In this document: piece after piece, positions 36,687-40,590 of the stretch
How positions within the stretch are numbered: the first letter of the stretch is position 1
How the letters are laid out: each line of letters starts with the position of its first letter
Assembly: GCF_000787835.1 (NCBI RefSeq)
Contig: NZ_BBPP01000002.1
Span: 249,437 to 313,436 of the forward strand
From: Streptacidiphilus melanogenes
GTDB taxonomy: Bacteria; Actinomycetota; Actinomycetes; Streptomycetales; Streptomycetaceae
Length of the DNA stretch: 64,000 nt
Direction: 5' to 3'
Made by a program: the position numbers and the translations under genes
Notes under the pieces: generated by a model
Seen by the model: the letters and a program-made list of their open reading frames with translations, nothing else
Databases searched by the model: none
What the model was told of the DNA's origin: nothing

Positions 36687-37931
36687 ATGACAGCTTCCGG
36701 CCCCTCGGCCTCGCCCAGCGGCTCCGGCCCGCTCCGTCACCCCGTCCCGAGCGACGGCGCGGCCCGCGGGCGGCGCCGGGTGGCGGTGGTCGGGGTGGCA
36801 CTGAGCGACTGCGGGCGGGTTGACGACGCCACGCCGTTCCAGCTGCACGCCCAGGCCGCACGGCGCGCGCTCACCGACTCCGGGCTGCCGCGGGACGTGA
36901 TCGACGGCGTGGCCTCGGCCGGGCTCGGCATCCTGGCGCCGGTGGAGGTCTCCGAATACCTGGGCCTGCGGCCCACCTGGACCGATTCCACCTCGGTCGG
37001 CGGCTCGACCTGGGAGGTCATGGCCGCCCACGCCGCCGACGCGATAGCGGCGGGCCATGCCAACGCCGTCCTGCTGGTCTACGGCTCCACCGCCCGCGCG
37101 GACCTCAAGGCGCGCCGTCGCACCGCCGCGCTCTCGCTCGGCGCACGCGGCCCGCTCCAGTTCGAGGCCCCCTACGGGCACACCCTGATTGCCAAGTACG
37201 CCATGGCCGCCCGTCGGCACATGCACGAATACGGGACGACGGCCGAGCAGTTGGCGGGCGTCGCCGTCCAGGCCCGCACCAACGCCGCCGCCAACCCGGA
37301 CGCGATGTACCGGACCCCGATCAGCGTCGACGACGTCCTTTCCGGCCCGATGGTCGCCGACCCCTTCACCAAACTGCACTGCTGCATCCGCTCGGACGGC
37401 GGCTGCGCGGTGCTGCTCGCGGCGGAGGACTACGTGCCGGACACCCGGCACGAACCGATCTGGATCCTGGGCACGGGCGAGGCGCTCAGCCACAGCACGA
37501 TGTCGGACTGGGAGGACTTCACCGTCTCCCCCGCCGCGCTCTCCGGCCGCCTCGCCCTCGAACGGGCGGGCGTCTCCCCGGCGGACGTCGACCTGTGCGA
37601 GCTCTACGACGCGTTCACCTACATGCCCCTGGTGATGCTGGAGGACCTCGGCTTCTGCGCCAAGGGCGAGGGCGGCCCCTTCGTCGAGGCCAAGGCGGGC
37701 CGTCTGCTGCGCGACGGCGAACTGCCCACCAACACCGACGGCGGCGGCCTCTCCGCCTGCCACCCGGGCATGCGCGGCCTCTTCCTCATCGTCGAGGCCG
37801 TACGCCAACTCCGCCACGACTACGCGACCTCCGCGCCCGACCGCCAGGTCCCGGGCGACCCGCAGCTGGCGCTGGTCAGCGGCACGGGCGGCTGGTTCTG
37901 CTCCTCGGGGACGCTCGTCCTGGGGCGGTAG
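36687..37931 (+). CDS. Thiolase-fold lipid-transfer protein (second copy)
   Basis: The 414-aa protein has a Pro/Ser-rich N-terminal 30 residues and then VAVVGVALSDCGRVDD, MAAHAADAIAAGHANAVLLVYGS, CELYDAFTYMPLVMLEDLGFCAKGEGGPFVEA and LPTNTDGGGLSACHPGMRG. It is related to the 24927 protein but not near-identical. No ribosome site precedes ATG 36687, so a leaderless message or a GTG start near 36780 (VAVVGVAL) is possible. A DUF35 gene is at 41974-42417. The last codons (GTGGWFCSSGTLVLGR) reappear in decayed form at 39271-39316. Confidence 0.8.
   Translation: MTASGPSASPSGSGPLRHPVPSDGAARGRRRVAVVGVALSDCGRVDDATPFQLHAQAARRALTDSGLPRDVIDGVASAGLGILAPVEVSEYLGLRPTWTDSTSVGGSTWEVMAAHAADAIAAGHANAVLLVYGSTARADLKARRRTAALSLGARGPLQFEAPYGHTLIAKYAMAARRHMHEYGTTAEQLAGVAVQARTNAAANPDAMYRTPISVDDVLSGPMVADPFTKLHCCIRSDGGCAVLLAAEDYVPDTRHEPIWILGTGEALSHSTMSDWEDFTVSPAALSGRLALERAGVSPADVDLCELYDAFTYMPLVMLEDLGFCAKGEGGPFVEAKAGRLLRDGELPTNTDGGGLSACHPGMRGLFLIVEAVRQLRHDYATSAPDRQVPGDPQLALVSGTGGWFCSSGTLVLGR
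37877..37923 (+). repeat. 3' end of thiolase gene, parent of the decayed copy at 39271-39316
   Basis: The bases coding SGTGGWFCSSGTLVLG share about 85% identity with 39271-39316 after small gaps. This is the left arm of an imperfect direct repeat that brackets the hypothetical gene. Confidence 0.7.
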
Positions 37932-38063
37932 CCGCGGGTGCCGGCACCGGCGCCGGATGTGTGAGCGTCACCATCATGGCAGGTCAGCGCGGGTTTTAGT
38001 AGGACCGATCGCACACGAGTGGAGCCTTGTTGGGCGGGATCCGCAGGGTCGAACATCTCCGTC

Positions 38064-39269
38064 ATGACTTCTGCCGAGAGCATCCATCCCGACATGGTCA
38101 TCCGAGCCCGAGTGAAGCTCCTGACGTCCGACAAACCGACCCTGCGAGACAAGGTGTGGGCCTATCGCATCCTCGCCCGCGTCGAGACCGGCTACCTGCC
38201 TCGACTCGTGGGCGCCCTGGTGCTGTGGGGCTACCAGGCCCCCGAAGGGCCGTACCGCCTGACCGTGTTCGACGAGGCGGTCGCCGCCGCGCGTCTCGTC
38301 GACAAGACGGAACCGAAGCGTGGTGAACTCCTGCTGCAGGCGCTCGACGCCCGGCAGAGGTGCCTCTACGGGTCGGGCCGACGCACCGAAGGCCTTGCCG
38401 TCCGCGAGGAGATGGCCTCCCTCGGCCGTCCGCAGCCGCTCGCTGCGGCGCTCGCCGAGGAGGGCCGCCACGACGAGTCCGCGAAGATCCATGACCGGCT
38501 GGCCGAGGGCGGCGCCGGCACCCCGTCCGACTGGGCTCTCATCGCACGGTCCGCGGAGTTGGAGGCCTGCGGGCGACTTGCCACAGCCGCCGAGGTCGCG
38601 TCGACGCTCGCCTCGCGGACGCGCGGCCGTCTGTCCGGGACGGGCGCGCCGCTGGCGCGTCTGTGCTGGGAACTGACACACCTGTCGCGCCTCCTGGACG
38701 TCCAGGGCGAGTCGGACCGGAGGCGCGAGGTCGACCGCGAGACCGTCCGCCGGCTCCAGGAGTTGGCGGCGACCGGAGAACGAAGGAGCTGGAGCAACAT
38801 TCTGTCGTGGTGGACTGTTCTCCTCGGCGTCTCCGGCCGGGCCGACGAGCCCGTGCGGCCAGGTCGGCCCAGTCCCGCCTTCGGCGAGGACGTGCTCCAG
38901 TGGTCTCCCGACGTGCGCAGGGCCTACCTCGACAGCCGGTTCGAGCTCGCCGCAGGCCTCGCCGACCTGACCCCGCGGGCGGAAGCCGATCCGCGAAAGC
39001 ATCTGCACGCTCTCGTGACGACGCAGCGTCGGCTCACGATCCGCGAGACCTTCTACTGGACCAACCGGACCTACCGGATCGCGGAGCCGCTGCGGCCGGT
39101 TTTCGACCGCAGCGTCGACCTGACGCGTCGACTCGCCGCGTCCGACCCGGCAAGGGGAACGGCTCTCCTGACCCGCGCTCTCACGGACCGGTCGGGCTTC
39201 CACCTCGCGGCACGCGAGTATGCCCCGGCTCTCGCCGACTTCCGCGAAGCGGTCGACCTCCGGGGCTGA
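38064..39269 (+). CDS. Hypothetical helical (TPR-like) protein
   Basis: The 401-aa protein is helix-rich, with repeating units such as LLQALDARQRCLYGSGRRTEGLAVREEM, LAAALAEEGRHDESAKIHDRLAEG and LWELTHLSRLLDVQGESDRRREVDRETVRRLQEL. They look like divergent tetratricopeptide helices, and the spacing is plausible for TPR. No catalytic motif, signal or membrane segment is evident. ATG at 38064 starts MTSAESIHPDMV; an upstream open extension to 38019 lacks a site. A decayed copy of the preceding gene's end lies just downstream, so its arrival may be recent. Function unknown. Confidence 0.6.
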   Translation: MTSAESIHPDMVIRARVKLLTSDKPTLRDKVWAYRILARVETGYLPRLVGALVLWGYQAPEGPYRLTVFDEAVAAARLVDKTEPKRGELLLQALDARQRCLYGSGRRTEGLAVREEMASLGRPQPLAAALAEEGRHDESAKIHDRLAEGGAGTPSDWALIARSAELEACGRLATAAEVASTLASRTRGRLSGTGAPLARLCWELTHLSRLLDVQGESDRRREVDRETVRRLQELAATGERRSWSNILSWWTVLLGVSGRADEPVRPGRPSPAFGEDVLQWSPDVRRAYLDSRFELAAGLADLTPRAEADPRKHLHALVTTQRRLTIRETFYWTNRTYRIAEPLRPVFDRSVDLTRRLAASDPARGTALLTRALTDRSGFHLAAREYAPALADFREAVDLRG

Positions 39270-39270
39270 T

Positions 39271-39316
39271 CAGGGCCACGCACGGCTGGTTCTGCCCCTC
39301 GGGACGCCCGTCCTGG
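39271..39316 (+). repeat. Decayed copy of thiolase 3' end
   Basis: CAGGGCCACGCACGGCTGGT begins a stretch that aligns with 37877-37923. It lacks one G of GGGGA, which would shift the frame. It starts 2 nt after the hypothetical gene's stop and cannot code. Confidence 0.7.
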
Positions 39317-39535
39317 CACGAGCGTCCCTTCCAGGAGTGAACCCCGCGGAGCCGAGAGGCTTCGACACGCACCCCAACCCATGGCGTCCACGCTGTGGGC
39401 TGGGGGAGCCGCGCCTCTGCCGCAGTGGCGAGCGCACACCACGCAGGCGGAGGTGTTCGGGACGCCGCGCCCTGGAACCAGGGCGGCGGGCCGCTCACCC
39501 CGCCTGCCGTGACGGGCGGGTCGACCGCGCCGCGT
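39317..39535. other. Gap between thiolase-like fragment and KAS III gene
   Basis: This stretch is noncoding-looking. It may be further decayed sequence from the same event; no homology is visible by eye. Confidence 0.4.
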
Positions 39536-40480
39536 TCAGGGGCAGCGGACGACCTGGCCGGCGTAGGCGAGGCCGCCGCCGAAGCCGAAGAGGAGGGCGG
39601 GGCCACCGGAGCGGAGTTCGCCGCGTTCCGAGAGGCGGGAGAGGGCGAGGGGGACGGAGGCCGCGGAGGTGTTGCCCGAGTCGACCACGTCGCGGGCGAC
39701 GACGCAGTCCGGCGAGAGGCCGAGCTTGCCGGCGATGGCGTCGATGATGCGCAGGTTGGCCTGGTGCGGGACGAAGGCGACCAGCTCGTCCGGGCGAACC
39801 CCCGCGCGCTCGCAGGCCTCGCGGGCGATCGGGGCGAGCTGGGTGGTGGCCCACCGGAAGACGGCCTGGCCCTGCTGGCTGATGGTCGGATCCCAGCCGT
39901 CGATGCGGACGGCGTCGCCCTTGGTGGGGTCGGAGCCCCAGACGACGGGGCCGACGCCCTCGAAGTCGTCCGTCGCCTCCAGGACGGCCGCACCCGCGCC
40001 GTCGGCGAAGATCACGCAGGTGGAGCGGTCGGTCCAGTCGATCGTGTCGGACATCTTCTCCGCGCCCACGACCAGGGCGCGGCGCGCGGCGCCCGCACGC
40101 ACGGCGTGGTCGGCGGTGGCGAGCGCGTAGGAGAAGCCCGAGCAGACGGTGTTCACGTCGTACGCCGCCGGGGTCGGGATGCCGAGGCGGGCGGCGACCT
40201 GGGCGGCGGTGTTGGGGCTGCGGTCCATCGCAGTGCAGGTGGCGACGACGACCAGGTCCACGCTCTGCGGGTCGAAGCCGCTGGCGGCCAGCGCCTTGGC
40301 GGCGGCGCGGGAGGCCATGTCGGCGACCGTCTCGTCGGGCGCCGCGATGTGCCGGGTGCGGATGCCCACGCGCGAGGTGATCCACTCGTCGCTGGTGTCG
40401 ACCAGCGACGCGAGATCGTCGTTGGTGAGGACCTTGGACGGCTGGTAGTGACCCAACGCGACGATGCGGGAACCTGTCAT
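39536..40480 (-). CDS. Beta-ketoacyl-ACP synthase III (FabH-like)
   Basis: The 314-aa enzyme starts MTGSRIVALGHYQPSKVLTN and has an intact Cys-His-Asn triad: Cys113 (VNTVCSGFSYAL), His239 (VPHQANLRI) and Asn270 (DSGNTSAASV). KAS III condenses an acyl-CoA with malonyl-ACP to start fatty acid or polyketide synthesis. I chose ATG at 40480 over GTG at 40489 because it fits family N-termini and has GGGAG close by. It stands alone, with no FAS genes near, so it may supply a special starter or act as an acyl-CoA handler in this region; that is inference. Confidence 0.88.
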   Translation of the reverse strand: MTGSRIVALGHYQPSKVLTNDDLASLVDTSDEWITSRVGIRTRHIAAPDETVADMASRAAAKALAASGFDPQSVDLVVVATCTAMDRSPNTAAQVAARLGIPTPAAYDVNTVCSGFSYALATADHAVRAGAARRALVVGAEKMSDTIDWTDRSTCVIFADGAGAAVLEATDDFEGVGPVVWGSDPTKGDAVRIDGWDPTISQQGQAVFRWATTQLAPIAREACERAGVRPDELVAFVPHQANLRIIDAIAGKLGLSPDCVVARDVVDSGNTSAASVPLALSRLSERGELRSGGPALLFGFGGGLAYAGQVVRCP

Positions 40481-40590
40481 GGCTCCCACTCAAGCTGATT
40501 ACCGATGGGTCTCCCGGAGAGGCTTGGCACAGGATCCACCGATGGGAGCTGTAGATCCCGGACAAACCCTCACAACGTGCGACGTTCGCG

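Follow-up and report, generated by a model that had tools for sequence, protein, structure and literature searches.

We report that the direct repeat of a thiolase gene end found downstream of a TPR-like gene in Streptacidiphilus melanogenes is genuine and not a product of chance, and that the TPR-like gene is an acquisition whose body, as judged from aligned identities, is no longer that of the sister species. We propose, with an even chance of being right, that the second copy of the repeat is a DNA-repair scar, left when this accessory gene was replaced by a foreign body. The window (the whole 64,000-nt stretch of DNA analysed) carries successively an acyl-CoA dehydrogenase gene (minus strand), the thiolase gene (plus), the TPR-like gene (plus) and the KAS III gene (minus), beyond which lie the genes of an OB-fold/ChsH2-type protein and of an acyl-CoA synthetase-like protein. 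The features of the locus are as follows:

36687 to 37931, plus strand: thiolase-like gene, 414 aa (Thiolase_C_1, Pfam PF22691, E 1e-52), the source of the repeat
37868 to 37923, plus strand: repeat copy 1, about 56 nt of the thiolase coding 3' end, stopping 8 nt before the end of the stop codon
37955 to 38063, plus strand: conserved upstream element of the TPR gene, single in each genome and laid out alike before family members of other genera
38064 to 39269, plus strand: TPR-like alpha-solenoid gene, 401 aa, of a patchy orphan family of Streptomycetaceae and relatives
38064 to 38123, plus strand: codons 1 to 20 of the TPR gene, about 95% identical to those of the related genomes G010, G008 and G002
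39262 to 39316, plus strand: repeat copy 2, a decayed thiolase 3' end that provides the stop codon of the TPR gene
39317 to 39535, no strand: leftover spacer before the KAS III gene, containing a hairpin (39372-39405)
39536 to 40489, minus strand: KAS III gene (3-oxoacyl-ACP synthase III; Pfam PF08545/PF08541 and synteny)

In a local alignment, the two copies match over 56 columns with 8 mismatches and one 1-nt gap. The score of the pair is 65, as compared with 20.4 ± 3.0 (maximum 37) for 2000 dinucleotide shuffles and with 46 for the runner-up, an unrelated place in the whole window, and the repeat stretch matches the thiolase end of G010 with an E value of 7e-9 (9.4-Mb genome). The direct repeat noticed in the first-pass annotation is therefore real, and its second copy is indeed decayed and frame-broken, by 8 substitutions and one deleted base. 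The 3' limits first given (37923 and 39316) also stand, while the left edge of 37877 and the length of about 47 nt have to be extended to 37868 and about 56 nt. As to the second copy, it does not begin 2 nt past the stop of the 401-aa gene, as previously placed, but overlaps the stop codon: it starts 8 nt before the end of this codon, and the TGA (39267-39269) lies inside it. Copy 2 has a boundary on either side and adjoins the junction between the foreign body and the resident spacer.

The same annotation had suggested looking in relatives for a thiolase locus with a single gene end and no TPR-like gene, and such a locus was found in seven congeners outside the clade of the window (G003, G004, G006, G009, G011, G012 and G013), where the thiolase and KAS III genes are directly convergent across a gap of 55-142 bp. 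This empty site identifies the TPR gene as an insertion. The window genome groups with Streptacidiphilus, the gene order is kept within the genus, and synteny finds KAS III as the convergent neighbour across it. In G010, G008 and G002 (the latter corresponding to S. pinicola, as G004 does to S. fuscans), the window's upstream element and TPR start directly follow the thiolase gene; G007 has only the beginning of the element, with other sequence after it. In a tree built from this same locus, from which the species relationships are taken, the window groups with G007 and G010 (support 100), G007 being nearest (support just 68%), and G008 and G002 fall outside. As the element and TPR start are present across these genomes in the locus tree, the insertion predates the splits between the window, G007, G010, G008 and G002. 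Together, these comparisons show that an ancestor of the clade gained the TPR-like gene, along with the element upstream of it, in the spacer that separates the thiolase gene from the KAS III gene facing it. Unrelated genes adjoin the thiolase gene in G005 and G001 (L044 5480-6070; L047 5300-6230), so that the spacer evidently tolerates insertions. G010 and G007 also carry, between thiolase and KAS III, a remnant of a helix-turn-helix (antitoxin-like) gene (L038 2900-3325; L041), of which G008 has traces.

The inserted unit consists of a single ORF preceded by the element, which comprises in the window CATCATGGCAGGTCA (37972-37986), TTTTAGTAGGAC (37994-38005) and GCACA, then TTGTTG (38027-38032), 18 nt, GAACAT (38051-38056), 7 nt and the ATG. 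This layout is consistent with a leaderless promoter with upstream boxes for a putative binding protein. In other genera, the element reads CATCATGNCAGNTC, 13 nt, GTAGG and, further on, GCAC, followed in the long forms of the gene by TTGTCC, 18 nt, CAGAAT, 7 nt and ATG. The pattern occurs in 53 of 298 genomes, and nowhere in the reversed control. A regulon was rejected, because the window's genome has a single element and no other genome more than one, and so was an RNA leader: no Rfam family reached threshold, and the consensus fold had an unfavourable covariation term and a single compensated pair.

The protein itself has no match among the Pfam, NCBIfam and PADLOC families. Any single TPR model is matched, weakly, by up to 3 of 11 relatives (by the window protein, none in Pfam), and the family profile matches designed PPR/TPR solenoids. 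A single-sequence structure model (pLDDT 51) is confident just for residues ~10-120, all helical. We would guess that the protein is a helical scaffold or regulator acting under its own promoter. A phage origin was rejected, as tblastn against phages gave no match, and a defence gene likewise, as PADLOC gave none. The family, matched in 75 of the 298 related genomes at E 1e-15, mostly comes in two forms, long (~400 aa) and short (~105-130 aa), which were not seen together in one genome at that threshold; long forms also occur on Streptomyces linear plasmids, with neighbours that are not conserved. Stand-alone homologues of the long-form N-terminus, of ~105-130 aa, were observed to be widespread in Streptomycetaceae (L182-L201). 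This work thus brings to light an orphan TPR family, as yet unnamed, whose upstream element is strikingly conserved.

The window gene is a chimera. First, over the element core and codons 1-20 the window matches G010, G008 and G002 at ~95% of positions (90-95% at third codon positions in the pairs that include the window). Second, past codon 20 the window is only about 50-65% identical to the same three genomes; over codons 21-40, it is 56% identical to G010, as compared with 86% for G010 versus G008 and 75-86% among G010, G008 and G002 themselves. Third, the third-position identity between the window and G010 over codons 21-95 is ~50%, versus 84.6% in the flanking genes (P about 6e-12). Fourth, the TPR form of G010 and G008 is the short one, of about 105-115 residues. 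Owing to this collapse of identity and to the short forms of G010 and G008, the window body is not the vertical counterpart of theirs; on these alignments, what follows codon 20 was shown not to be the sister species' version, and a recombination breakpoint probably lies near 38124, where the identity collapses. The left joint is thus homologous (the ~95% identical block), and the right joint has no recognisable homology except for copy 2. Since the G010 and G008 bodies past codon 40 also diverge beyond expectation (P 0.008), the locus may be generally mosaic. The search for a donor of the window body, in genomes and plasmids, gave no match above about 48% protein identity.

Where copy 2 came from can be judged from its differences, which fall 3/4/1 on codon positions 1/2/3, and from its closest matches, the thiolase ends of the window, G010, G007 and G008; those of G002 and the outgroups are less close. 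The first-pass annotation had considered a remnant of a former neighbouring thiolase paralogue, and a deletion could indeed leave only such a 3' end. A paralogue would be expected to show coding-type divergence from the resident thiolase, but the differences do not favour third positions and are distributed as in non-coding decay, so that copy 2 is best regarded as a decayed copy of the resident gene; moreover, its best match is the resident clade's own gene and the congeners examined have no paralogue directly beside the thiolase. We find this origin scarcely credible.

Copy 2 looks younger than the original TPR insertion, on slender evidence: G010 and G008 lack it, and it has the GGCG found in the thiolase ends of the inner clade (window, G010, G007 and G008) where G002 and G004 read CGCC. 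This dating relies on two sites and 8 substitutions. No second thiolase end was found in G010, G008 or G007, the G007 spacer being partly unread, and G002 ends at a contig edge. The 8 differences in 55 positions are somewhat high for an event later than the G010 split (third positions differ by ~8% per branch), and would fit an older one.

The idea that the thiolase 3' end had been used for duplication or integration survives in its first half only, the duplication of the end being confirmed and its use for integration not supported. A tandem duplication, or the single-crossover integration of a circle, of the segment running from the thiolase end through the element to the TPR gene would directly place another thiolase end behind the TPR gene, provided that the second element and gene were later deleted; simple tandem duplications of the thiolase end do occur in Streptomyces (e.g. 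122 nt in L102). This scheme requires, however, a deletion whose start lies no more than about 8 nt from the copied stop codon, and neither a second element nor a second gene 5' end can be traced between copy 2 and KAS III; we regard it as unlikely. In three Streptomyces, the spacer downstream of the thiolase gene has independently received short copies of its 3' end (L102 7053-7312; L082 7101-7182; L122 7186-7250), which also count in favour of the repair-scar proposal.

A second scheme takes copy 2 for the displaced resident end: incoming DNA bearing a thiolase 3' end, the element and the TPR gene would have recombined within the thiolase gene and been joined illegitimately ~60 nt before the resident stop. 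For Vibrio T6SS arrays, it has been suggested that comparable one-sided events leave the older 3' parts in place downstream of a newly arrived module (PMC5361080). Yet the resident last codons and stop expected after copy 2 are not recognisable there, and the spacer has no clear match to empty-site spacers (z at most 2.4), which makes this scheme quite doubtful. The spacer hairpin is similar to one in G010 (weakly significant).

Turning to mobility of the unit, DNA homology among ~36 long-form loci is mostly limited to the stretch running from about -95 to -145 upstream through the stop codon, even where pairs are 88-91% identical and their surroundings unrelated; the short forms follow the same rule. 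This promoter-plus-ORF confinement recurs in two orphan genes taken as controls from neighbouring plasmid loci, one for an MpaB-type oxygenase and the other for a 2'-5' RNA ligase. A dedicated mobile TPR unit was therefore rejected: as control genes behave alike, the confinement is a general property of accessory genes that calls for no special mechanism. Orphan accessory genes of Streptomyces seem to share only promoter plus ORF between unrelated loci (L238-L250 and L252-L255).

Insertion of the unit itself, in an attachment-site or transposition-like manner, could have generated a ~60-nt target duplication, and in another genome the TPR unit of one long-form locus, L163, is flanked by a direct repeat of 63 nt (84% identical) that consists of a gene 3' end. 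On a background of 4 such repeats in 2525 window pairs, 3 of them from one locus, the chance of at least one further flanking-repeat case is about 0.03-0.05, so that this recurrence, while hinting at another mechanism, is suggestive only. Against it, 33 of 35 long-form loci have no such repeat, L163 being the only case among the 34 other than the window; G010 and G008 have the same insertion point without the copy; and the L163 fragments resemble coding-diverged gene ends, one of them frame-shifted. A target duplication is thus very unlikely, and use of the thiolase end as an attachment site is not supported. Both L163 copies (1288-1350 and 2803-2864) are similar to the final ~17 codons of a gene on the minus strand. 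In agreement with the first-pass annotation, the genes inspected near the site include no integrase, and neither integrase nor transposase was seen in or near the unit; the duplications of the 2 long-form loci out of 35 are unrelated in sequence. We consider it most improbable that the element and TPR gene form a recombinase-less mobile unit that settles by gene 3' ends at one copy per genome, leaving a ~60-nt target duplication. We also rejected a general role of the thiolase end as a site of integration: 97 thiolase loci had only short tandem duplications besides the window.

The repair-scar proposal, to which we return, would involve one homologous and one end-joined junction. A divergent full-length homologue would have entered by recombination in the shared upstream element and first 20 codons, and its far end, devoid of homology, would have been sealed by end joining. 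In this process, ~56 nt from the thiolase 3' end, 1.4 kb away, would have been copied or captured as junction filler, which would have chanced to provide the TPR stop codon and then decayed. The filler origin is suggested by the shape of the junction, and neither donor nor intermediate of the gene replacement was found. If true, it would lend weight to the suggestion that end joining aids the establishment of foreign genes, and the window would be a natural case, timed by relatives, of what looks like repair-type filler at the joint of a horizontally replaced actinomycete gene. On present evidence, neither the scar nor the orphan TPR family alters the known picture.

Three known systems bear comparison with the window. 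Streptomyces accessory single-gene indels (PMC6722414) likewise place a gene between conserved genes, variably in close relatives, with the family in unrelated contexts; they differ from the window, whose insertion is flanked by two conserved lipid-metabolism genes and carries a repeat at one of its joints. Homology-facilitated illegitimate recombination and 3' displacement (PMC3240628, PMC5361080) also combine a conserved 5' block with a foreign 3' part through one homologous and one non-homologous joint, as found here, donor DNA excepted; the window has no toxin-immunity or Rhs features, and its leftover comes from a neighbour gene, not from the displaced gene. Finally, non-homologous end joining (NHEJ) at induced breaks in S. 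ambofaciens gave three scars with insertions, two of 42 or 83 bp from nearby (PMC5869714). As in the window, a short resident piece (30-83 bp), in two cases from near the break, sits at the junction, and Ku is present here too, in two clear genes (PF02735, E 2e-49 and 1e-43); the S. ambofaciens breaks were induced and their scars fresh, whereas the window event would be old and decayed. The window repeat is thus of an event type already known in related bacteria, unusual only in being dated by relatives.
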